Part shown: positions 13,789 to 56,293 of the stretch, one piece after another
Numbering within the stretch: the first letter of the stretch is position 1
How the letters are laid out: every line of letters starts with the position of its first letter
Assembly: GCF_007860095.1 (NCBI RefSeq)
Contig: NZ_SJPT01000003.1
Location: 207,764 to 271,763, forward strand
Direction of reading: 5' to 3'
DNA: 64,000 nucleotides
Source of the DNA: Novipirellula galeiformis
GTDB taxonomy: Bacteria; Planctomycetota; Planctomycetia; Pirellulales; Pirellulaceae
Notes under the pieces: generated by a model
Databases searched by the model: none
Told to the model about the DNA's origin: nothing
The model's input: only the letters and a program-made list of their open reading frames with translations
Program-made: the position numbers and the translations under genes

Positions 13789-15402
13789 ATGAATAAGTCG
13801 CGCGTCGTTATCGGTTTTCTCGGTACCCAATTAGACCAACCCGCCAAGCGAGGTGATCGCTGGTCGGGTTGGCGGCCCAGTATTGCCGTGTGTCAGCAGC
13901 CCGACTTGATCGTCGATCGATTTGAATTGCTGTGTGATCGACGACACGAAAAGCTGGCCGAAAGCGTGGTCGCCGACATCCGCTCGGTCTCTCCCGAAAC
14001 CGAGGTGCGTCTGCATTGGAATCAGCTTCGCGACCCCTGGGATTTCGAAGAGGTCTATGCGCTACTGCACCAGTTCACTCGTGACTACTCGTTTGACGCC
14101 GATCACGAGGAATACCTCGCCCACATTACCACAGGCACGCACGTCGCACAGATTTGTTTGTTCTTGTTGACCGAATCACGTCACTTGCCCGCCGCGCTGC
14201 TGCAGACCTCGCCACCGAATCGCAGCGGCAAAGACCCTCGCGGTGTCTACAGCGTGATCGATTTAGATTTATCGCGGTACGATCAATTGGCCAGCCGGTT
14301 TCAGGCCGAACACCAGGAAGGATTGTCGTTTCTAAAATCGGGGATCGAGACACGGAACAAGGCCTTCAATCAATTGATCGAACGGATCGAACAGGTATCG
14401 CTAGCGACCCGTGCGCCGATTTTGTTGAGTGGGCCAACGGGAGCGGGCAAGTCACAACTCGCCCAACGCATCTTTGCGTTGAAACGACATCGTCAACAAG
14501 TTGCCGGCCCGTTGGTTGAGGTGAATTGTGCCACGATTCGCGGCGAACAAGCGATGTCGACGCTGTTCGGCCATGTAAAAGGCGCGTTCACCGGGGCAGC
14601 CGCTGCACGTGCTGGGCTGCTGAAATCGGCTGACCAGGGAGTGCTGTTTTTAGACGAGATTGGCGAACTGGGTTCCGACGAACAAGCGATGTTGTTGCGC
14701 GCGATCGAAGAGAAGACCTTTCTCGCGGTTGGATCGGATGACGCGACGTCGAGCGATTTCCAATTGATCGCAGGCACCAACCGTGACTTGCACCAAGAAG
14801 TCGGACGCGGCAATTTCCGTGAAGACCTTCTGGCCCGCATCAATTTGTGGTCGTTCGCGATGCCAGGATTGGCCCAGCGTCGCGACGACATCGATCCCAA
14901 CATTGAATTTGAATTACAAAAGTTCACCACGACTCATGGGCGGAAGGTGACGTTCAACAAGGAAGCACGCAAAAAGTTTATCGAGTTTGCCCATGATCCA
15001 TCGACGCCTTGGAAGGCCAACTTCCGCGACTTGAACGCGGCGATCACACGGATGGCAACGCTGTCGCCGGGCGGACGCATTACGACCGACATGGTGGACG
15101 AAGAAATCCAGCGGCTGAGGTGCAGTTGGCGAGGATCGGAGAAGCCCGATAGCCATGCCGCGACATTGCGAAGCGTGCTGGATGAGAATCAAATTGCCCA
15201 ACTCGATCGATTTGATCAAGCCGCGCTTGCCGAAGTGATCAAGGTGTGCTCGCAATCGTCGTCGCTCTCCGCCGCCGGTCGCGAGCTCTTCCAAATCTCA
15301 CGGCAATCCAAGCAAAGGGCAAATGATGCCGATCGGCTACGAAAATATCTAGCAAAATTCGGGATCCAGTGGAGCGATATCGCAGCGGGGGAATTTTCTT
15401 AG
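13789..15402 (+). CDS. rtcR: RtcR, CARF-domain sigma-54-dependent activator of rtcBA
   Basis: A 537-residue regulator. Residues 1 to about 180 match the RtcR-type CARF domain (VVIGFLGTQLD at the start, HITTGTHVAQICLFLL further on), which is known to sense RNA-derived ligands. The central AAA+ domain has Walker A GPTGAGKS at 215-222, GAFTGA at 265-270, Walker B VLFLDEIGEL, and NFREDLLARI. The C-terminus (LSAAGRELFQISRQSKQRANDADRLRKYL) is the DNA-binding helix-turn-helix. It is divergent from rtcBA and should activate the promoter at 13650-13665. A TATAAT hexamer at 13776-13781 lies only seven bases before the ATG, so a very short leader is possible, but no -35 is evident. Length equals that of E. 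coli RtcR. Confidence 0.95.
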   Translation: MNKSRVVIGFLGTQLDQPAKRGDRWSGWRPSIAVCQQPDLIVDRFELLCDRRHEKLAESVVADIRSVSPETEVRLHWNQLRDPWDFEEVYALLHQFTRDYSFDADHEEYLAHITTGTHVAQICLFLLTESRHLPAALLQTSPPNRSGKDPRGVYSVIDLDLSRYDQLASRFQAEHQEGLSFLKSGIETRNKAFNQLIERIEQVSLATRAPILLSGPTGAGKSQLAQRIFALKRHRQQVAGPLVEVNCATIRGEQAMSTLFGHVKGAFTGAAAARAGLLKSADQGVLFLDEIGELGSDEQAMLLRAIEEKTFLAVGSDDATSSDFQLIAGTNRDLHQEVGRGNFREDLLARINLWSFAMPGLAQRRDDIDPNIEFELQKFTTTHGRKVTFNKEARKKFIEFAHDPSTPWKANFRDLNAAITRMATLSPGGRITTDMVDEEIQRLRCSWRGSEKPDSHAATLRSVLDENQIAQLDRFDQAALAEVIKVCSQSSSLSAAGRELFQISRQSKQRANDADRLRKYLAKFGIQWSDIAAGEFS

Positions 15403-34677: not shown

Positions 34678-35193
34678 ATGTCTATCGCTTCCGAACAATT
34701 CGAATTGGCTCCACCGATCGTGACGTCGAACAACACCCGGGGGGCCGGTCCGCTTGGGGGCACGCATCTAGGCGACTTCGCCACAGCGGGTTCCGAATCA
34801 TCCCTACCGTCCACGTGGGTGGGTGGATTGCAAACGGCGCCAGCCCGTTTGGTCAATCTGGATGACGAAGACGACGACCGGGACGATGATGACGACGAAG
34901 ATTCCGGTTTTGGCTCGGATGACGATTCCGAAGGCGGTGGCGGCACCGACGATGGCTTCAACGACGGACTCGACGAAGACGACGAGGTCGATGAATTTGA
35001 CGACATCGACGAAGATGATTTTGACGACGATTTCGACGACGATTTCGAGGAAGAACTCGAAGACGACTACGAAATCGAAATCGAAGACGAAATCAGTGCC
35101 GAGTTTGGCTTAAGCAGCGGCGACGGCAGCGAAGACGACGACCTCGAAGATTTTGATGATTTTGATGACGTCGACGAAGATCTAAACGACTAA
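34678..35193 (+). CDS. Highly acidic Asp/Glu-rich protein
   Basis: A 171-residue protein of unknown family. The first 60 residues are of ordinary composition (STWVGGLQTAPARLVNL at the end). The rest is dominated by Asp and Glu in irregular runs such as DDEDDDRDDDDDED and DDFDDDFDDDFEEELEDD, interrupted by Gly/Ser (DDDSEGGGGTDDG). The calculated charge would be extremely negative, so binding of calcium or other cations, or contact with basic proteins, is plausible. No signal peptide is evident. A stem-loop at 35197-35215 follows the stop. Such tails also arise in planctomycete proteins of unknown role. I do not assign a function. Confidence 0.7.
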   Translation: MSIASEQFELAPPIVTSNNTRGAGPLGGTHLGDFATAGSESSLPSTWVGGLQTAPARLVNLDDEDDDRDDDDDEDSGFGSDDDSEGGGGTDDGFNDGLDEDDEVDEFDDIDEDDFDDDFDDDFEEELEDDYEIEIEDEISAEFGLSSGDGSEDDDLEDFDDFDDVDEDLND

Positions 35194-39493: not shown

Positions 39494-39507
39494 CATGGGA
39501 TTCAAGC

Positions 39508-39532
39508 CGTAGCTACGTTCGCCAGAACGTGG
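39508..39532 (+). repeat. Dispersed hairpin element, copy 2 (probable terminator of purN)
   Basis: The bases contain the stem ACGTTC (39515-39520) and GAACGT (39525-39530) around a GCCA loop, flanked by CGTAGCT and GG. The reverse strand at 10810-10834 has the same element with ACCTTC/GAAGGT. Both differ at one base pair, and both arms change together. It begins 14 bases after purN. Confidence 0.6.
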
Positions 39533-39679
39533 CCCACCATCGGGCGACGGTAGCGACATCAATCGAAAAGTTGCGTTAGGGATGGCAACGTGAGGCGGGG
39601 ATGGCGTGGTGAAGCTCGGTTACTGGCGGAATTCGGTTACTGGCAGAGTTCAGTTTCTGGCGAAACGACGCGAGCGGCA

Positions 39680-40807
39680 TCACGCCGGCGAAGGGCGGCC
39701 GTAGTAAAACCCTTGGCCTAATTGAAAGCCGAGGTCGATGCAAGCGTTTGATTCGCCTTCGGTTTCGACCCCTTCAGCGAGCGGCAAGATATCCAAGTCA
39801 CAAACCATGTTGACTAGGTTTGCCAACATTTTGCGTCGGCTCGCATCCGCGGTATCAATTCCTCGGATCAACGAGATATCGAACTTTACCACATACGGTC
39901 TCGTTTCCACGAGTTCGGCGAGCCGTGCTTGGCCGGAGCCAAAGTCGTCGTAGGCAAGCCGGATCCGTTGTTCTTCGAGTACATCGACCAACGTTTTCAT
40001 CACATCACGATTGGTGACGGCTGACTCGTGAATTTCCAAAACGAGGTTGGCATTGCCTGCCATCTGGCGGGCTTGAATCAACGATTCGACTAGCCCTTGG
40101 ATGTCTTCGACTTCCTTGGGATGTGTATTGACAAACAACATCGGGCTTTCGGGGAAATCGCGACCGACGCGAATGCCTTCCCAACGAAGCAAGCGACTCA
40201 ATTCCACTTCGAGGCTTAATTGTTCGGCGGCTTGAAACATCGCGCCCACGGATTCGAGCCCGAACACGCTGCCGCGTCCCAGGATTTCGTGACCGACCAT
40301 CTCGTGTGACGGGCAACGCAGATCGACAATGGCTTGAAAATGCGGTTTAACGAGCCGTTCAGCCATCAAGCGGTCAAATTGCACCAGCGCTAACGCTTGG
40401 TCGCAAATATTTTCGGCAATCGTACCGTGAGTCGCTCCGGTCACCGATTGTCGATAAATCCGAAAGGGAGCTTCGGCAAAGTGGATCAAATCCTCTTCCG
40501 AAATCCGAATCGTCTGGTGTGGCTCAACCCGCTTCCCGTTGACGTAGGTTCCGTTGGTGCTACCGAGATCGGTTAATTGCAGCGCCCCGTCGCGAATACT
40601 CAGTGCAGCATGCTGGCCGCTCACGGTACGAAATTGGAGACGCAGCGAGACGCCTGGCTTGCGACCGATCACGTAAGGTTCGACATCGATCGGCAGGTGA
40701 AGGATCGATTCGCCAGGCTGAGTTGGTCCCGCTAGAAACCAAATGTCTTCCATAAGCGCACTATTGCGCCGGAGACGTTCGAGAGCCGAGTTTTCAATCG
40801 TTGCCAT
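39680..40807 (-). CDS. FHA-EAL domain signalling protein
   Basis: A 375-residue cytoplasmic protein. The FHA domain (about 42-110) has GRK at 48-50, SGQH at 63-66 and GSTNGTYVNGK at 82-92, the conserved phosphothreonine-binding loops. Residues about 150-372 form an EAL-type domain: EILGRG at the signature site, FVNTHPKE, LVLEIHESAV, YDDFGSGQA, VVKFDISLIRG and LPLAEGVETEGES. Most metal- and substrate-binding acids are kept, so cyclic-di-GMP hydrolysis is possible, although the signature is EIL instead of EAL. It is divergent from the AAA ATPase and kinase genes (205-base gap). An FHA reader next to a Ser/Thr kinase suggests a link between phosphorylation and cyclic-di-GMP signalling. Confidence 0.85.
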   Translation of the reverse strand: MATIENSALERLRRNSALMEDIWFLAGPTQPGESILHLPIDVEPYVIGRKPGVSLRLQFRTVSGQHAALSIRDGALQLTDLGSTNGTYVNGKRVEPHQTIRISEEDLIHFAEAPFRIYRQSVTGATHGTIAENICDQALALVQFDRLMAERLVKPHFQAIVDLRCPSHEMVGHEILGRGSVFGLESVGAMFQAAEQLSLEVELSRLLRWEGIRVGRDFPESPMLFVNTHPKEVEDIQGLVESLIQARQMAGNANLVLEIHESAVTNRDVMKTLVDVLEEQRIRLAYDDFGSGQARLAELVETRPYVVKFDISLIRGIDTADASRRKMLANLVNMVCDLDILPLAEGVETEGESNACIDLGFQLGQGFYYGRPSPA

Positions 40808-41012
40808 TAATCTTGTACGCTCAAGGGGCGGATGTGTTTTGTGCGCAGCGGTCCACTTACTTTCGAAGCGGTCCTGCTGCGGGACCTAAAAACCTACGTT
40901 GCAATTAGCCCAGGGTCGTCACTCCTTCTCAAATTTCTCCTACAAAAGTGCTTTCTCGCGAGAACTCGCTCCGTTTCTCTTATTTACAAGCTAGGTTTGA
41001 AGGCGGCAATCC

Positions 41013-42467
41013 ATGTTCGCTAACGGGCAAAGTTTGCCTATCACGACGCCTTGCCCCACATCCTCGGATCCTCACGCTCCAACATCCGCAACCACGTTCC
41101 CTTTCCCGCATCGTACATTCATCAACACCGTTGCTAACGTTATGACTGCACTCGCAAGCGATACACAATCCTTCGAACCAAGCATGTTAGGAGGGTTGTT
41201 GTCGGACGACACATTTTGGCCGACCCAACCTCGAGATTTGCAGGAGACGGGTTTAAGCGCTGCCTACGTCGACGGGCTGATGCTAAAAATCCTGTTGGTC
41301 GGTGGAACGCTTAGCGGCCGAAACGGCGCCGAACGTATCGGCATTCCGTTCCGTGTCATTGAACCGATACTCGATGCGCTGCGAACGCGCAAGCTCGTCA
41401 CTCACGTTCGTCCGGCGCCGTTTAACGATTATTACTATTCGTTGACCGAAGCGGGGCAAAAACAAGCCAACCACCAAATGACTCAGTGCAGTTACACCGG
41501 TCCGGCTCCGGTCACCCTCTCCGATTACGTGCTCAGCGTTGAAGCTCAAGCCGCCGGCTTGGACCCGATCGATCGCGAACAGTTGCGCAGCGCGTTGAGT
41601 TCGATTTCGTACCAAAGCGAGCTACTTGATCACTTGGGTCCCGCGGTGAACAGCAATACCGGGATGTTCTTATTCGGGCCACCGGGCAACGGCAAAACAA
41701 CGATTGCCCGCTGCCTAACGCAGTGCCTTGGCCAAGAGATTTGGATTCCGCATGCGATCCTTGATGATGGAAATCTAATCAAGTTGCAAGACGATGCGTT
41801 CCATCGCCCCGCGCCGGTCCCCGAGATGGTCGGAGACATATTGAAGGGTCAAGAATGGGACAATCGCTGGATTCGCATTCGCCGCCCCACCGTGGTCGTA
41901 GGTGGTGAATTGGTGATGGACAATCTCGAAGTGCGACACGATCCTCGCTCGAATATCTGTGAAGCACCGCTGCAAATGAAAAGCAATTGCGGTTGCTTGC
42001 TGATCGATGACTTTGGACGGCAACGCATTGCTCCCGAGGAATTGTTGAACCGCTGGATCATTCCGCTAGAGAACAAGTGTGATTACTTAACGCTGCCAAC
42101 GGGAAAGAAAGTTCAAATTCCGTTTGAACAACTGATCATATTTTCGACCAACATCGATCCCAGTTCTCTAGTGGACGAAGCCTTCCTGCGACGCGTGCCC
42201 TACAAGATCTACGTTTCGGATCCAAGTCGCGAAGAGTATCGAGAAATCATGCTCGGTGTCACCAACTCGCTTGGATTCCCCAACACGCCTCAAGCGGCGG
42301 AGCATTTGTTCAAATTCTATGAGGACAGCGGACGTAAGATGCGACGCTGTCATCCTCGCGATTTGCTGACCCAGGTCGCGAATTTTTGCAAGTACCGCAA
42401 GCTGCCGCTGACGTTACAACCCGATTACCTCGATCACGCCTGCCGAAGCTACTTTAGCCAACTGTAA
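41013..42467 (+). CDS. AAA family ATPase with N-terminal winged-helix-like region
   Basis: A 484-residue protein. Residues about 90-155 (GRNGAERIGIPFRVIEPILDALRTRKLV, then YYYSLTEAGQ) read like a winged helix. The ATPase core has Walker A GPPGNGKTT from residue 222, Walker B CLLIDDFGRQ (Asp-Asp at about 332-333), a sensor-1 Asn in IFSTNIDPSS, and an arginine-finger candidate in EAFLRRVPYKIYV, followed by a helical lid ending in HPRDLLTQVANFCKY. GAAGGCGG precedes the ATG at 41013; an internal ATG at codon 43 is the alternative. The family is uncharacterised as far as I can tell. The kinase-tubulin gene begins 185 bases downstream on the same strand, so the two probably act together. Confidence 0.75.
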   Translation: MFANGQSLPITTPCPTSSDPHAPTSATTFPFPHRTFINTVANVMTALASDTQSFEPSMLGGLLSDDTFWPTQPRDLQETGLSAAYVDGLMLKILLVGGTLSGRNGAERIGIPFRVIEPILDALRTRKLVTHVRPAPFNDYYYSLTEAGQKQANHQMTQCSYTGPAPVTLSDYVLSVEAQAAGLDPIDREQLRSALSSISYQSELLDHLGPAVNSNTGMFLFGPPGNGKTTIARCLTQCLGQEIWIPHAILDDGNLIKLQDDAFHRPAPVPEMVGDILKGQEWDNRWIRIRRPTVVVGGELVMDNLEVRHDPRSNICEAPLQMKSNCGCLLIDDFGRQRIAPEELLNRWIIPLENKCDYLTLPTGKKVQIPFEQLIIFSTNIDPSSLVDEAFLRRVPYKIYVSDPSREEYREIMLGVTNSLGFPNTPQAAEHLFKFYEDSGRKMRRCHPRDLLTQVANFCKYRKLPLTLQPDYLDHACRSYFSQL

Positions 42468-42651
42468 TGCTCCGAGACGGCCCCACCTTTGGAGCGCAAG
42501 ACGGTTGCCTTCGCCCCCCAGAGAATCGGGTGATCGTCGCGATCCTAAAACGAAGGCCTCCGACGTGAGGAGGTCGCGGCATCGCAGTGCAAGCAGACAT
42601 TCATCCGCAACGCCCCCGTTCCCCCGTTCCCACGTAGAAAGCCGCCTCGCG

Positions 42652-45600
42652 ATGACAGCGACCGACTCGAAAAAAATCAGCGCTGGTTACGAACCGATCC
42701 CAGGTTACGTGCTCGAAAAACTGATCGGGCGAGGTGGGTTCGGAGAGGTTTGGCGCGCCGATGCGCCCGGTGGGATCAAGAAGGCGGTCAAGTTTGTCTT
42801 CGGGGCCCACGATCAACAACGGGCTTCACGAGAGCTCAAATCGCTCGAACGAATCAAGGGCGTCAGCCACCCCTTTCTATTGACGCTAGAACGCTTTGGA
42901 ATTGTCGATGATCAATTGGTGATCGTCACGGAATTGGCCGACGGCTCACTCGAAGACGTGTTTCGCCAACATCGTGACCGCGGATCTTGTGGTATCCCCC
43001 ACGACAAATTGCTCGCATACCTGCATGATTCCGCAGACGCACTGGATTATTTGCACGAGCACTATCAGCTACAACACCTCGACATCAAACCTGGGAATTT
43101 GTTAATCGTCGGGGGACATGTCAAGGTAGCGGATTTTGGGTTGCTCAAGGACTTGCGAGACGCGGATTGCAGTGTCGTCGGTGGTTTAACCCCGGTTTAT
43201 GCACCGCCGGAGGTCTTCGATGGTCGGCCGAGCTTGCACAGCGACCAATATTCACTGGCGGTGATGTACCAGGAATTGTTGACCGGCACGCGTCCCTTTA
43301 GTGGGCGGACGATCGCCCAATTGGCGACCCAACACGTTCACAACGCTCCGGATCTCGAACCCCTTCCCCCCTGTGACCGCCCCGCGGTCGCCAAGGCGCT
43401 CGAAAAAAAACCAGAGCGACGATTTGAGAATTGCCGGTCGTTTGTCAAAGCGTTGATGAATCCACGCAAACGAGGCCCCTCGATTCGTCCTCATGCGGGT
43501 GAATTGTCTCAAGAGGATACCGCCGAAGGCATCCCGCTCGGAGTCGGTATCCAAGCGACGATGGCGAAAGATTTACCGGCCCTTGAAGATGGAGCAATCC
43601 AATCCGATCGTCGCATCGTTTCCAACATGCTGATGGTTGCACTCGGAGGTACCGGGGCTGACGTTTTACGCGAGATGCGAAGTCGCGTCGCCAGCATGCA
43701 TTCAACGTCTCCAGTCCGCTTGCATTCGTTGCTGATCGACACCGACGAAAAAACACTTAGCCTCGCTCGAGTGGGCAACTCGAATTCCTCGCTGCCGCCA
43801 ATTGAGATCGTTCCGATCCCACTGCGTTCGCCCAACGAATACCGACAATCGCTCTCCAACAATCGACTGGGCACCGTTTCTCGTCGCTGGATCTACAATG
43901 TTCCACGTAGTCTTTCGACCGAAGGCATGCGGCCACTGGGACGGCTAGCCCTTGTCGATAACGGCGGCAAAGTCACTACGGCCATCGAGAGAGTGATCAA
44001 AGATCTCGTAGCGTCCGGTAGCCAAGAAAGCCCCAGCATCTACGTCGTTGGCTCGCTCAGCGGTGGGACCGGAAGCGGGATTTATCTCGATGTCGTGCAT
44101 TTATTGCGGCATTACCTCGACATCAACGAGCTCGAACAAGTCAAAATCCTCTCGATGTTAGCCATCAAGGGACTCACACGCAGCCCATCGGTTTCCCTTG
44201 CCCACCATGACGCACAAGCGGCATTGATCGAGATGCGACACTATCTGCAACCGGGAAACGGCTATCCCGGCGACCCGGGTGCGGGGTGGCCCAGCGTCCC
44301 GGCAGCCCGCACTCCGCTGAAACACACCTATTTGATTGCCAGTAACGAGGCGGATCCCACCTCGCCCACGCCGGTCAATGTGATTAGCGACTACGTGTGG
44401 TCCGATGCCACCGGGGCTGGCGAATTACTAGCCAAAGCTCGCCAGTGGGAAACGACATCGCCCGAGACGTCGATCACCAAACCGCAATTGCGATCCGTTG
44501 GCATCGTCCCCCTCGGCGTCATCCGGCGGCCCGAAGAGAAAATCCTGACACCGGCGACAGTGAAATACTTGCTGCTACGTTGGTTGGGACACCCCGGTCA
44601 CGCCAAAAAATACGCCGAACTGCTAACCCAACGTTTCCTGCGACGCACGGGATTTTCTCGTGATAGCCTGGTCGACGTGATCCTGGAACCGCTAGCATCC
44701 GAACCGCACGATCGCTGTCGCCAAATGCAACACCGAATCGATGCGACCGCTCGCGATCAGGGACATCCGCTCACGATCGCTGAGGGACGCCGTTTGCTCC
44801 CCCAATGGGCAAACGAAATTGTCTCGATGTCAAAAGTGAATCCCTTCATCGAGCAACTTTACAGTGTCTTGAGCGGGGAATTGTTCAACCGACTTTCGCA
44901 CCGCAGCACGAACATTGCCACCGCCGTGGCAGGACTGCAACGTTTTCAGACCGAAGTGGTTGCCGTTTCCGCAGCCCTGCGAGAGGAAAACGCAACGAGT
45001 GAACTCGACTTGAATCCGCAACCCTCAGCATCATTGTGGACCGCCGAGATGGCGGCCGAGGCGATCGTACACGAATTGAAGCAACTTGCCGCCGACCATG
45101 CCACACTCCTTGCAACTCGGGTCGACGAAACCATCACCCGATTGAATGACGTCGCTACGACCTTCGCCGTTACGATTTCGGAATTGGCCGATGGACGCAG
45201 CGCAACGCTCAACCCCTGGGATGAGATGCCCGAGGAAATCTCGTCACAATTCGAAGACATTGTCGCTGAACTGCACACGTCGATGGTAAATCCAATCCTG
45301 ATTCGTCCGCTGATCGGCGGCGTGATTGCGATGGAGGCAAACCAAGTTAAAACACGGATGAGCGAAGCGGCCTCGCCATTGGTGGGACGCGTCTTGACAT
45401 CCCTAAGCTCCTCCTCGGTCACCCCATCGAACTCCGCGGATAGGAACTCAGGGGACGGGAGCTCGAGGGACGGTGACGTCACGACATCGCTGGTCAACTC
45501 AAGCGAACTCTCCGGCAACACCAAGACCGCCATACTCACCGAATGCAGCTCCCCCCACACCGTAACGTCACCCAAGACGTCTACGGAACCAACCGTTACG

Positions 45601-45936
45601 TCCATGGCAACCGCATTGCAACACGCTCGCCCCTCCCTACTGGATTGCGGCGGGGCCCAACGCTTGATTCTGGCCGTCGGGACCCACTCGGAGCAAATCC
45701 AACTCGAGGCCGAACTTCGCCAATTCCACTCCGGTGAATTGACAACTACCTTGATTCCGGGCACGACCGCGAAATTGATTCACGAAGCTCAACGGATCGA
45801 TTTGAATGAAGTGATCGCTCGGCTCTCGACGCTCAACGCGAGCAACCTTCAAGTCAGTGGCCGTTTGATGACCCGTTCGGACATCGATTGGAAAAAGAGT
45901 GAACCCCGCTCTCAGCTCGTCGCCGAATCACGCTAG
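42652..45936 (+). CDS. Serine/threonine kinase fused to a tubulin-like domain
   Basis: A 1094-residue protein. Residues about 13-270 are a Hanks-type kinase: glycine loop IGRGGFGEVW, lysine in AVKF, catalytic loop HLDIKPGN (about 143-150), DFG at about 161 and an APPE motif. The Arg normally before the catalytic Asp is Leu, so it is a non-RD kinase. From about residue 325 the sequence matches the tubulin-like family PF13809: LMVALGGTGADVLREMRSRV near 333 and the GTP-binding signature SLSGGTGSGIYLD near 470. A low-complexity Ser/Thr segment (about 920-985) precedes a conserved C-terminal end. No transmembrane helix is seen. The frame opens at 42505, but the ATG at 42652 directly precedes the kinase domain. 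Confidence 0.88.
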   Translation: MTATDSKKISAGYEPIPGYVLEKLIGRGGFGEVWRADAPGGIKKAVKFVFGAHDQQRASRELKSLERIKGVSHPFLLTLERFGIVDDQLVIVTELADGSLEDVFRQHRDRGSCGIPHDKLLAYLHDSADALDYLHEHYQLQHLDIKPGNLLIVGGHVKVADFGLLKDLRDADCSVVGGLTPVYAPPEVFDGRPSLHSDQYSLAVMYQELLTGTRPFSGRTIAQLATQHVHNAPDLEPLPPCDRPAVAKALEKKPERRFENCRSFVKALMNPRKRGPSIRPHAGELSQEDTAEGIPLGVGIQATMAKDLPALEDGAIQSDRRIVSNMLMVALGGTGADVLREMRSRVASMHSTSPVRLHSLLIDTDEKTLSLARVGNSNSSLPPIEIVPIPLRSPNEYRQSLSNNRLGTVSRRWIYNVPRSLSTEGMRPLGRLALVDNGGKVTTAIERVIKDLVASGSQESPSIYVVGSLSGGTGSGIYLDVVHLLRHYLDINELEQVKILSMLAIKGLTRSPSVSLAHHDAQAALIEMRHYLQPGNGYPGDPGAGWPSVPAARTPLKHTYLIASNEADPTSPTPVNVISDYVWSDATGAGELLAKARQWETTSPETSITKPQLRSVGIVPLGVIRRPEEKILTPATVKYLLLRWLGHPGHAKKYAELLTQRFLRRTGFSRDSLVDVILEPLASEPHDRCRQMQHRIDATARDQGHPLTIAEGRRLLPQWANEIVSMSKVNPFIEQLYSVLSGELFNRLSHRSTNIATAVAGLQRFQTEVVAVSAALREENATSELDLNPQPSASLWTAEMAAEAIVHELKQLAADHATLLATRVDETITRLNDVATTFAVTISELADGRSATLNPWDEMPEEISSQFEDIVAELHTSMVNPILIRPLIGGVIAMEANQVKTRMSEAASPLVGRVLTSLSSSSVTPSNSADRNSGDGSSRDGDVTTSLVNSSELSGNTKTAILTECSSPHTVTSPKTSTEPTVTSMATALQHARPSLLDCGGAQRLILAVGTHSEQIQLEAELRQFHSGELTTTLIPGTTAKLIHEAQRIDLNEVIARLSTLNASNLQVSGRLMTRSDIDWKKSEPRSQLVAESR

Positions 45937-45949
45937 CCGGACGGGGGGC

Positions 45950-46531
45950 CTACTTAGCCGCACACTTTGCTTTGACGGCACAGCCGGCACAGCCCGTCCC
46001 GCAACCGGTCCCGCCCGCTTCGCTGGTACCACACCCAGGTCCACACCCCTCGCCTAGCAGTTTGGCAAAATGGCGTGATCGCACGATCGACTCGTATCGC
46101 TCGGTCACTTCCTTGGTGATCGCTTCCGCGGTGGCGTCGACTTCCCCTAGGAAGTGCATGATCAACGAGCCGCCATCAAAGATTTGGTCGACATCCAATA
46201 AAACCGCTGCGGAGCCCGATTGTTGGAGTGACGCCCGACAGGCCTCGACGGCTTCGCGTTTGTGTCGTTCGAGCCGCCGGATCAAGAGCTCGTCTTCGTT
46301 GGTGGTATGGCGAATCAAGCGAACGCTCGGCATTTTGTTGACCGAATCGCCCGCCTGGCTGCCCAGCCCTCGAGCGTTGGCTTGCCCCAGCACGGTGCCC
46401 AGTTCGACGCCACGGCCGGTTCGGACGATCGCACGGGCCCCAAACTGAAACTCGGCCTGCTCTGCGCCAGCGTTCCCCTGGCCGATAAAAATATCGCCGA
46501 GGACGCCGATTCGTACGTAATAATGACTCAT
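45950..46531 (-). CDS. PSP1-domain protein with Cys-rich C-terminus
   Basis: A 193-residue protein. VRIGVLGDIF opens it, and VRTGRGVELGTVLGQ, NEDELLIRRLERHKREAVEACRASLQQSG, VLLDVDQIFDGGSLIMHFLGEVDATAEAITKEV and RSRHFAKLLGEGCG resemble the PSP1/YaaT domain (PF04468), a small domain of unknown enzymology found in RicT/YaaT, which forms the FeS-containing RicAFT complex of Bacillus. The C-terminal tail is exceptionally Cys-rich (GEGCGPGCGTSEAGGTGCGT and CAGCAVKAKC), suggesting metal or FeS binding. Start is ambiguous between a GTG at 46543 and the ATG at 46531; I used the ATG. It is convergent with the kinase-tubulin gene (13-base gap) and divergent from bioB. Confidence 0.75.
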   Translation of the reverse strand: MSHYYVRIGVLGDIFIGQGNAGAEQAEFQFGARAIVRTGRGVELGTVLGQANARGLGSQAGDSVNKMPSVRLIRHTTNEDELLIRRLERHKREAVEACRASLQQSGSAAVLLDVDQIFDGGSLIMHFLGEVDATAEAITKEVTERYESIVRSRHFAKLLGEGCGPGCGTSEAGGTGCGTGCAGCAVKAKCAAK

Positions 46532-46677
46532 TGGGAAAAACACATTTTAGACGACTTGTCGATTTGCCTCGGCACGCTCAACATGTTGGCATTCTCACGG
46601 TTGAATGAACAGTGAGAAACCAATGAAAACGGACCGAAACGAGCGAAGCTCGCCCCGAGAGAAGAAGGCAAAATAAT

Positions 46678-47721
46678 ATGACGGCCAGTCCCGAAGCGAC
46701 CACCACGCCATCCGAAACGCAAATCAATGCAGATCGCTACCAAAAACTGGCAGAAAGCGTCCTCGCGGGCGAGCCAATTTCTCGCCAAGACGCTCTCTCC
46801 ATCTTAACCGCCCCGGACGTCGACGTTCTGCCGATTCTGGCAGCAGGCTATCAAATACGTCACCGCTACTTCGGTCGCTCGGTTCAATTGTACTTTTTGA
46901 TGAACGCCAAAAGCGGTCTTTGCCCCGAGGATTGCCACTATTGCAGCCAATCGAAGATCTCCACAGCCCCGATCCCCAAATACAACATCCTGAAGCGGGA
47001 CGATTTGATGAAGGCCGCCGAAATTGCGGCCAACCAAGGTGCGAAGACCTATTGCCTTGTCATCTCGGCACGCGGACCGAACGAACGTGAAATGTCGGCC
47101 GTCGAAACGATCGTGCCTGAAATCAAGGAAAAGTACGGACTCGATATCTGTGCCTGCCTGGGACTGCTCAACCGCGAGCAAGCCGACCGCTTGAAGGCGT
47201 GCGGTGTCGATCGAGTCAACCATAACTTGAACACCAGCGAAGAACATTACGCCGATATCTGTACCACCCATACCTACGCCGACCGTGTCCAAACGCTCCG
47301 CAACGTTCGCGATGCAGGCATGGAAATGTGTAGCGGCGGGATTATCGGAATGGGAGAATCCCCCGAGGACGTCGTCTCGATGGCGTTTGATCTTCGCGAC
47401 CTTGGGGTCCACTCGATCCCGCTCAACTTCCTCAACGCAATCGAAGGCACCCCGCTGCAAGGCAACATGGATCTGAATGCGAACCAGTGCTTAAAAGCCC
47501 TGGCGATGTTCCGGTTTGTGAACCCCGACCGTGAATTGCGAATTTCGGGCGGCCGCGAATTGCACCTTCGGTCGCTTCAACCAATGGGGTTGTACGTCGC
47601 CAACAGCATGTTTGTCGGCGACTACCTCACGACCAAGGGGCAAGCCCCGCAAGCCGATTACGACATGATCACGGACCTCGGCTTCGAAGTCACTCAGAAC
47701 GTCGAGCCAGCAACCTCGTAA
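46678..47721 (+). CDS. bioB: Biotin synthase
   Basis: A 347-residue radical-SAM enzyme that inserts sulfur into dethiobiotin. The [4Fe-4S] motif CPEDCHYC is at residues 82-89, followed by YCLVISARGPNE, CACLGLL, NHNLNTSEEHY and ELHLRSLQPMGLYVANSMFVGDYLTTKGQ, all typical of BioB. Length agrees with the family. GAAGAAGG lies upstream of the ATG. No bioA, bioD or bioF is adjacent. No obvious BirA-type operator was seen in the 146-base divergent gap. The product biotin is needed by the acetyl-CoA carboxylase genes at 56902-58746. Confidence 0.97.
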   Translation: MTASPEATTTPSETQINADRYQKLAESVLAGEPISRQDALSILTAPDVDVLPILAAGYQIRHRYFGRSVQLYFLMNAKSGLCPEDCHYCSQSKISTAPIPKYNILKRDDLMKAAEIAANQGAKTYCLVISARGPNEREMSAVETIVPEIKEKYGLDICACLGLLNREQADRLKACGVDRVNHNLNTSEEHYADICTTHTYADRVQTLRNVRDAGMEMCSGGIIGMGESPEDVVSMAFDLRDLGVHSIPLNFLNAIEGTPLQGNMDLNANQCLKALAMFRFVNPDRELRISGGRELHLRSLQPMGLYVANSMFVGDYLTTKGQAPQADYDMITDLGFEVTQNVEPATS

Positions 47722-55126: not shown

Positions 55127-56044
55127 TTAATCTTTGCTCGCCGGATTGGCGGCATCATCAGCGACTTCCGCGGGCGTGGGTACCACTTCGACATCGGAAT
55201 CAAGCTCTTTTGCTGGAGTCGGTTCCAACTTCGGGGCAGCCTTGGTCTGCGTCTCCGCATCGGGCTGCGAGTCCGCTTTAGGGGCCACGCTCGGCTCGTC
55301 CGACTCCGTAACCGTAGCGGGTTCACCGCTGACCACTCCCGGCGGTGCAACCGAGATCACCGTTGATCCGTCCTCCAGAACCATGCCTGGGCGAAGATCA
55401 GCGGAGGAGGGATCGACACGTCCCGCCGCGTAAGGCGAAACGGCACGAGGTTGATGTTGAAACTCACTGCTATAGCCTGGAACGCCATAGGGCGACTCAA
55501 TCGCCCCGTCGTACCGGTAGGAAGTTCCGTATGAATCAACCGGAACCTCGCCATAAACCGGATCCGGTGTGTAGCTCAAGCTAGGTTGAGTGAAATAGTC
55601 GGGAGCGAAACCACGATACGTCGTAGAGTAGCTCGAGGAGGGATAACGATAGGTATCGATCCCATAATCGATGCCACCGTAACCGAGACTGCCGTACCCG
55701 AAGCCACCGTAACCGTAGGGATAACCGCCCCCGATGGAGAGACTAAAGCCGCGGCCGGAATAGACATTGCTGCCATAGAATCCCCCGCCGTAATGGCCTC
55801 CGCCGTGATACACGTGCCCCGAGTGCCCATGACCCGAGTGCCCATGACCCGAGTGCCCGTGCCCCGAATGCCCGTGCCCCGAATGCCCATGACCCGAATG
55901 CCCGTGCCCCGAGTGCCCGTGACCCGAGTGCCCGTGACCTGAATGCCCGCCGCCATGACGTTGAGCCCACAGCGGCGCTGCAGCTAGCACCCCTACGGCA
56001 ACGGTCGTGGCAAGAACAATGCGACGAAAATGAAACAGCAACAT
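55127..56044 (-). CDS. Secreted His/Gly-rich repeat protein
   Basis: A 305-residue exported protein: the signal peptide is MLLFHFRRIVLATTVAVGVLAAAPLWA. It is followed by eight exact SGHGH pentapeptides, then a Gly/Tyr-rich region (YGGGFYGSNVYSG, GYPYGYGGFGYGSLGYGG). The C-terminal half is Pro/Glu/Ala-rich and contains VLEDGSTVISVAPPGVVSGEP. The His repeat is likely to bind transition metals (Cu, Ni or Zn), and the Gly/Tyr part may be surface-associated. The ATG at 56042-56044 is preferred to an upstream TTG at 56053 because AAGGAG then sits at a usable distance. No family is recognised. It is a single-gene unit. Confidence 0.75.
   Translation of the reverse strand: MLLFHFRRIVLATTVAVGVLAAAPLWAQRHGGGHSGHGHSGHGHSGHGHSGHGHSGHGHSGHGHSGHGHSGHGHSGHVYHGGGHYGGGFYGSNVYSGRGFSLSIGGGYPYGYGGFGYGSLGYGGIDYGIDTYRYPSSSYSTTYRGFAPDYFTQPSLSYTPDPVYGEVPVDSYGTSYRYDGAIESPYGVPGYSSEFQHQPRAVSPYAAGRVDPSSADLRPGMVLEDGSTVISVAPPGVVSGEPATVTESDEPSVAPKADSQPDAETQTKAAPKLEPTPAKELDSDVEVVPTPAEVADDAANPASKD
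55824..55943 (-). repeat. Eight tandem 15-bp repeats encoding SGHGH
   Basis: On the plus strand the unit reads TGCCC(A/G)TG(A/C)CCCGA(G/A), with eight copies from 55824 to 55943. Only silent positions differ, except a single T in the last copy, so the peptide is kept exactly while the codons vary. Confidence 0.9.
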
Positions 56045-56293
56045 GGACCCCAACTCCTTCGCGAATAACGCGGTACAACATCAGGCGTGCCGACGGCGTT
56101 ATCGTTTCGCCTCGGTGCATCATCTCGCGCACCAACCGAATCGCCGTCAATCATGCACAGCCTACCTTCTCTATCCTAGATCCCTGGTAGGGTTTGGCAA
56201 ATGATTTAGCCCGCAAACGTCGAACAAGCCGCTCAAACGCTCAAACGGAGGGGCATATTGATTGCACACCACCCCATGGCTAGCCGCCGCGGA

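Follow-up and report, generated by a model that had tools for sequence, protein, structure and literature searches.

A kinase-tubulin fusion protein of Novipirellula galeiformis belongs to a conserved planctomycete neighborhood encoding FHA-EAL and AAA+-type proteins

A 64,000-nucleotide stretch of the Novipirellula galeiformis genome (contig NZ_SJPT01000003.1, positions 207,764 to 271,763; hereafter the window) encodes a protein, designated T, in which a Hanks-type kinase is fused to a tubulin-like domain of the FtsZl1/PF13809 family. T belongs to a conserved module, a variant of the FtsZl1 context, in which the fusion is accompanied by a protein with FHA and EAL domains (F) and an AAA+-type ATPase (A). 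The strongest evidence for a coupled system is provided by these two neighbors, which lie outside the T gene (coordinates are collected in Table 1). The module is new relative to the literature searched and offers a testable mechanism. Here, the reading that T is part of a planctomycete signaling module coupling a tubulin-like scaffold to turnover of cyclic di-GMP (c-di-GMP), and not a stand-alone cytoskeletal gene, is considered evenly poised between right and wrong.

Neighbors encoded in regions of 3 to 19.5 kb that surround 58 PF13809 places were clustered together with those in the window; a 59th place, the second in genome G140, lay within one of these regions. F, A and a third protein, X, were the only neighbors to recur in more than 8 of the 59 loci. 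A kinase profile assigned 43 of the 59 as fused, with F nearby in 40, A in 32 and either protein in 42; the single fused locus with neither (L068) encodes a dead kinase. A search for related loci with the window protein alone returned no relative. An alignment query gave the best 80 of 474 named planctomycete loci, found by the patterns LQHLD[IV]KP and GxGG[YF]GEVW, which were added to the set. Given that loci found by these patterns favor window-like members, they are unusable for showing conservation of the HLD motif. After removal of duplicates, the 139 loci yielded 132 distinct T proteins, of which 115 were fused (72 from named loci). F was observed near 92 of the 115 distinct fused loci, A near 87, either protein near 103 and both near 76. 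By contrast, A was present in one (L055) of 16 kinase-less PF13809 loci and F in none (Fisher p = 1.3e-11 versus fused loci), although the loci and genomes are related by kinship, such that this and the other Fisher values overstate independence. Neither partner was found at L175, a locus not scored as fused, which consists of a fused gene with the kinase in a separate open reading frame.

The order and strand of the partners varied. In the window, F is divergent from A-T; elsewhere F directly precedes T with X divergent, the order is A-T-F, or all four genes run in the same direction as X-F-A-T (L080, L096 and L097). The typical FtsZl1 context, which is not strictly defining, is an operon with a von Willebrand factor A (vWA) protein and a GTPase; the fused loci instead recurrently adjoin F, A and X. 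A vWA-like family, recognized by eye without a Pfam scan, adjoins four kinase-less loci. In genome G010, a kinase-fused FtsZl1 protein and a kinase-less one beside a vWA-like protein (also assigned by eye) coexist (L063 and L071).

A rival reading is a conflict or defense system built from kinase, tubulin-like and AAA+ proteins, similar to the tubulin-containing systems that Kaur and co-workers described (2020, PMC7159879). Passages of that paper place tubulin proteins in GTPase-centered conflict systems, and the kinase domain of T matches the PADLOC entries mad6 (E 1.6e-45) and PD-T4-6 (E 1.7e-37). However, the PADLOC matches listed for T all fall in the kinase part, A gave weak matches to IetA and TRIP13 (best E 2.1e-09) and F gave none in PADLOC. 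As the recurrent neighbors amount to F, A and X, with no effector-like protein among them, this explanation is disfavored and appears very improbable.

The partners were also sought genome-wide in 60 near-relative genomes, 37 of them PF13809-positive. Matches to the A profile fell into two score classes, one at or above 660 bits (30 genomes) and one, a paralogue, at or below 628 bits, in addition to pieces broken by contig ends; the class boundary was placed by eye in the gap from 628 to 660 bits. The high-scoring A subfamily was present in 30 of the 37 PF13809-positive genomes and in none of the 23 negative genomes (p = 1.7e-10), or in 34 of the 37 (p = 1.1e-13) when four broken pieces, assigned by judgement from match start and location, were added. 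Full-length F was found in 32 of the 37 positive genomes versus two of the 23 negative ones (p = 1.6e-9). The paralogue of A occurs in most of the 60 genomes (for example at G000:C1:1168678-1169943, in L198), and its surroundings gave no clue to the function of A, with no neighbor recurring in more than 3 of 14 regions.

The presence of F tracks that of an intact kinase. In the genome-wide F search, 32 of the 33 positive genomes whose fused kinase has the catalytic-loop motif also encoded F, versus none of the four that lack such a kinase (p = 7.6e-5). The single intact-kinase genome that lacks F is G001, where the contig is broken inside A. In G006 (L068), the fused kinase is a pseudokinase that has lost the glycine loop and carries HLN for HLD, and both full-length F and the high-scoring A subfamily are absent. 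In G040, the kinase and F have been lost and A is kept beside T. These distributions bear on the possibility that the neighbors are co-inherited by linkage only, with F reading another kinase and A serving an unrelated function. Such a reading could account for those genomes in which F and A are distant from T or on a different contig, and for the two genomes that encode F without PF13809. Nevertheless, the association persists through several rearrangements of order and strand, the A subfamily occurs in 30-34 of the 37 positive genomes and in none of the 23 negative ones, and F is gone along with the kinase in both G006 and G040. Linkage alone is thus an improbable explanation.

An earlier reading of the window from sequence alone held that a non-RD kinase and a tubulin-like domain share one frame, and this was borne out. 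The T frame, which opens further 5' at TTG 42505, is uninterrupted and holds IGRGGFGEVW, HLDIKPGN, DFG, LMVALGGTGADVL and SLSGGTGSG, and both PF00069 and PF13809 match it (Table 1). The artefactual joining of two genes by a sequencing error, which that reading had allowed for, can be excluded because the same fusion recurs in 115 distinct loci. The residues of a Hanks-type Ser/Thr kinase (Lys47, Glu61, HLD142-144 with the catalytic Asp, Asn149 and DFG161-163) are kept in 67/67 aligned T sequences (the window protein and 66 relatives); given that the relatives were collected via kinase patterns, conservation of HLD in this set is partly by construction. Among the 43 kinase-type fusions found through PF13809 (window included), a search that is blind to the kinase, HLD[IV]KP was present in 42 and HLN in the remaining one. 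T therefore lacks the Arg that precedes the catalytic Asp in RD kinases. The AlphaFold2 model of whole T had a mean predicted local distance difference test score (pLDDT) of 84.5, and the top four Foldseek matches to it were kinase-domain entries of Mycobacterium tuberculosis PknF, PknB and PknA. T thus resembles kinases of the PknB/PknA group in its catalytic residues and in its top structural matches, but differs from them in being non-RD and in its fusion to a tubulin-like domain.

The linker between the kinase and the tubulin-like domain averages 68 residues across the 67 sequences. Its Thr content is 8.3% versus 5.3% overall, every linker contains at least two Thr residues, and the pLDDT falls below 50 at residues 275-297 of T. 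It may therefore provide one or more candidate sites of phosphorylation.

F combines an FHA domain, as found in readers of Ser/Thr kinases, with the EAL domain of c-di-GMP phosphodiesterases. The FHA core comprises G-R, S, H, S-T-N and N, and the EAL set comprises eleven substrate and metal positions. Window F retains the FHA core and all 11/11 EAL positions; it differs from the known readers and phosphodiesterases in carrying both domains in one protein beside a kinase-tubulin fusion, and in belonging to a family in which EAL is eroded in 29 of 92 members. Pfam models detected FHA in 34/34 F members and EAL in 33/34. The FHA core was intact in 90 of the 92 F proteins encoded near fused loci; the two exceptions (L131 and L170) are truncated, starting at the edge of a contig. 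EAL was intact in 63/92 (62 at 11/11 positions and one at 10/11) and eroded, with 0-6 of 11 positions, in the remaining 29. Among 20 X members, Pfam detected GGDEF in 15, CBS in 15 and a receiver domain in 10. When X was counted within 6.5 kb and its state scored by the motif GG[DE]EF, the motif was present in X at eight loci, all with intact EAL, and lacking at 26, all with eroded EAL (p = 5.5e-8); no mixed state was seen among the 34 loci with X in reach. With no X in reach, there were 55 F proteins with intact EAL and three with eroded EAL. We read this pattern as joint loss of c-di-GMP turnover from F and X in part of the clade, with the reading of phosphothreonine kept.

Pfam AAA (PF00004) scored A at 18.6 bits, below the cut-off of 21.2. 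Its Walker A, LLIDDFG, STN and RR motifs are conserved in 24 aligned members, and A was assigned to the AAA+ ATPases on what we take to be the meaning of these motifs.

The elements that stay constant in the module are an intact kinase and an intact FHA domain, which are most simply explained if T makes a phosphothreonine that F reads. Threonine of T, or of a close partner protein, would be phosphorylated by the kinase part of T, and the FHA domain of F would dock on this phosphothreonine, such that an EAL domain acting as c-di-GMP phosphodiesterase is brought to the tubulin-like scaffold. If a neighboring X carries an intact GGDEF motif, a synthase may be brought to the scaffold as well. The tubulin-like domain would bind nucleotide and determine how the hub assembles or which conformation it adopts, and A would remodel or reset it. 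The cellular output might, as a guess, be local c-di-GMP control of a motile/attached switch or of budding.

Several points weigh against this proposal, in addition to the kinship among loci noted above. Besides L068 and L118 (a 4.6 kb contig), ten named loci make up the 12 fused loci with neither F nor A (L167, L177, L179, L180, L183-L187 and L189); seven of the ten are titled Gemmatales, Gemmataceae or Fimbriiglobus, and no neighbor was shared by at least three of 11 Gemmatales-type loci. The two PF13809-free genomes that encode F are G014 and G017. Because the PF13809 proteins of G022 and G055 lack a kinase and belong to other types, the informative losses are those of G006 and G040 only. 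As EAL is eroded in close to a third of the F proteins (29/92), the module does not require c-di-GMP turnover. On the tree of T, with EAL labels taken from an earlier locus count (102 of 115 with a partner, later 103), the EAL state requires five changes (seven versus all other rows), of which strongly supported branches force one; the EAL state therefore represents clustering and not many independent events. X is not encoded in the window, and a search of the own genome gave separate matches to the GGDEF, receiver and CBS regions, none of which spanned the X profile. Finally, no common phosphosite motif was found in the linkers, T-x-x-D/E being present in 23/67.

The same earlier reading assigned the second half of T to the tubulin/FtsZ fold, and structure prediction together with Foldseek agrees. 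PF13809 matched T well above its cut-off (Table 1), whereas the classical tubulin/FtsZ GTPase model PF00091 scored 16.6 bits, below its cut-off of 33. Searching the PDB by profile yielded mostly helical bundles, with one weak tubulin/FtsZ match (E 0.31) among the 60 matches listed, and a fold search was therefore adopted. Residues 318-1094 were folded apart because kinases alone appeared among the matches listed for the whole protein. The separate model had a pLDDT of 86.6, and its best Foldseek match was FtsZ (E 2.4e-05); the 50 matches listed were FtsZ, tubulin, BtubA, TubZ, CetZ or tubulin-holding complexes, with target-normalized TM-scores of 0.35-0.51. The predicted fold of T is thus that of the tubulin/FtsZ superfamily. 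The FtsZl1 signature GGGTG(S/T)G, whose positions apart from the two central glycines vary in some members, appears in the window as SGGTGSG with Ser in place of the first Gly, and Arg427 and Glu527 are invariant in 67/67 aligned sequences. The long coiled-coil or helical region and mostly helical C-terminal part of FtsZl1 proteins are also recognizable in the model, in which the C-terminal element of T (residues 985-1093) additionally contains strands. The C-terminal motif is conserved at R1071 in 52, R1075 in 65, D1077 in 64 and W1080 in 62 of the 67 sequences. T shares its predicted fold and the two T4-loop glycines with FtsZ, TubZ, CetZ and tubulin; it differs from these proteins in its sub-threshold PF00091 score, in giving no PF12327 match, in the T7 acids, which were not found in the region searched, and in its long helical region.

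The T7 catalytic loop motif of FtsZ is NxDxxD/E. This motif was found in 2/67 sequences when ∼120 residues after strand S6, placed according to the structure model, were searched. Given that canonical T7 acids were not found in the searched region and the T4 glycines are kept, the tubulin-like part would be expected to bind nucleotide without canonical hydrolysis. These features could also be accommodated if the domain were a non-filamentous nucleotide sensor or oligomerization platform that regulates the kinase, with F a partner of the kinase only. In keeping with this, no canonical T7 loop was found, a long helical region comes after the fold, and the occurrence of F goes with an intact kinase and not with the tubulin-like domain. 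Strict invariance of the T4 glycines, Arg427 and Glu527 argues otherwise, as does G040, where the tubulin-like part has been retained, with A beside it, after loss of the kinase. This alternative is possible but unlikely. A more elaborate form of the scaffold proposal, in which T would be a kinase filament, nucleotide-driven assembly of its tubulin part would raise local kinase activity, the FHA-EAL protein, recruited by the filament once phosphorylated, would carve out a c-di-GMP-poor zone at a single site in the cell and the AAA+-type protein would dissolve the filament, is doubtful. If true, a cytoskeletal polymer would serve as a moving second-messenger platform in bacteria without FtsZ.

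Absence of FtsZ, as the sequence-only reading had stated for planctomycetes, was confirmed for the own genome by two models. The best PF00091 match in the genome search reached 14.9 bits against the cut-off of 33 and lies in a 598-residue frame (L212, G000:C1:444598-444702), and PF12327 gave no match at E values up to 10; each model detected its target in 13/14 control genomes. Recognition of an FtsZ requires both models above cut-off, and T falls short with PF00091. The FtsZ-less genome, the tubulin/FtsZ fold and the T4 glycines (67/67) would all suit a planctomycete stand-in for FtsZ, namely a GTP-driven filament under kinase control that would build or position the site of division or budding. 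However, PF13809 was detected in 37/60 near-relative genomes (own genome included) and is missing from 23/60; across the phylum it was detected in 22/392 genomes (19 above cut-off) and is missing from 370/392. In a motif screen of the 22 phylum-wide PF13809 genomes, ten, among them the own genome, carried the kinase fusion. Even among close relatives, therefore, the fusion is not universal, and this speaks against a general replacement of FtsZ. The scarcity of the T7-type motif points the same way, and Makarova and Koonin (PMC2875224) were unable to identify T6-H7 in the family with confidence. Replacement of FtsZ is accordingly disfavored on the distribution of PF13809, and such a role is quite unlikely. 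The filament or cytoskeletal role that had been suggested for T is unsupported as stated, and the cytoskeletal character of T and its formation of filaments are unproven. The accompanying suggestion, that phosphorylation may be linked to the tubulin-like domain, is plausible.

The fusion itself, although real, is not new. Four planctomycete kinase-FtsZl1 fusions were noted by Makarova and Koonin in 2010 (PMC2875224), such that the fusion has been in print since that year, and it is repeated in passages of papers from 2023 and 2024, including PMC9871819. The kinase-tubulin protein goes unmentioned in passages of planctomycete or PVC cell-division papers (PMC10632474, PMC6952346 and PMC12283558). 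In the FtsZl1 family as described in 2010, a long helical region comes after the tubulin-like domain and its GTP-binding loop, and planctomycete members with an N-terminal kinase have the architecture of T. The partners reported for the family were vWA proteins, GTPases, separate kinases and OmpA-like proteins (PMC2875224), unlike the FHA-EAL protein, the AAA+-type ATPase and, in some lineages, the GGDEF protein found here. A reviewer of that paper pointed to a diguanylate phosphodiesterase, Psta_0487, encoded next to FtsZl1 in Pirellula staleyi and raised a transport or signaling reading, citing the c-di-GMP phosphodiesterase neighbor among others; the authors set this reading aside because such neighbors looked lineage-specific. 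No paper describing a conserved partnership of F or A with T appeared among the open-licence papers listed by the searches; the supplement of PMC2875224, which was outside the search, may list neighbors.

Table 1. Coordinates of T, its parts and its upstream neighbors in the window
Feature	Coordinates	Strand	Basis
T, kinase-tubulin-like (FtsZl1/PF13809) fusion protein, 1094 residues	42652-45936	+	ATG at 42652, stop codon ends at 45936
Hanks-type kinase domain of T, residues 19-272	42706-43467	+	PF00069 Pkinase, E 2.3e-31
Linker from kinase to tubulin-like domain, 51 residues, candidate phosphothreonine site(s)	43468-43620	+	Thr content, low pLDDT
Tubulin-like nucleotide-binding domain of T, residues 327-565	43630-44346	+	PF13809 Tubulin_2, E 3.5e-25, 89.5 bits, cut-off 27
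T4 phosphate loop SGGTGSG, residues 470-476	44059-44079	+	Gly471 and Gly472 in 67/67
Long helical region of T, residues 626-921	44527-45414	+	Secondary structure of model
C-terminal alpha/beta element (1002-1061) and conserved C-terminal motif R1071, R1075, D1077, W1080	45655-45891	+	Model, alignment
A, AAA+-type ATPase, 484 residues, directly upstream of T	41013-42467	+	Conserved motifs
F, FHA-EAL protein, 375 residues, divergent from A	39680-40807	-	FHA PF00498, E 1.6e-18; EAL PF00563, E 6.5e-32

F and A are both upstream neighbors of T in the window. Just downstream of T lies a gene for a PSP1-like protein (45950-46543, minus strand; 23.7 bits versus a cut-off of 27) with a Cys/Gly-rich C-terminus. 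Promoter and terminator scans of positions 39500-46700 gave results at or below chance level. Elsewhere in the window, a 308-residue frame (55127-56053, minus strand) with consecutive Gly-His-Ser-Gly-His repeats close to the N-terminus and a 171-residue frame (34678-35193, plus strand) with an extremely Asp/Glu-rich C-terminal part had no Pfam match at E 0.001, and an RtcR-type sigma-54 activator (PF06956) is encoded at 13789-15402 (plus strand).

The function of the kinase-fused FtsZl1 proteins has been a standing question since 2010. An FHA-EAL neighbor recurs across a large planctomycete clade and follows the intact kinase, and the question is therefore directly testable. If F binds phosphorylated T via its FHA domain and T polymerizes, then protein phosphorylation, a relative of tubulin and c-di-GMP would come together in FtsZ-less bacteria.

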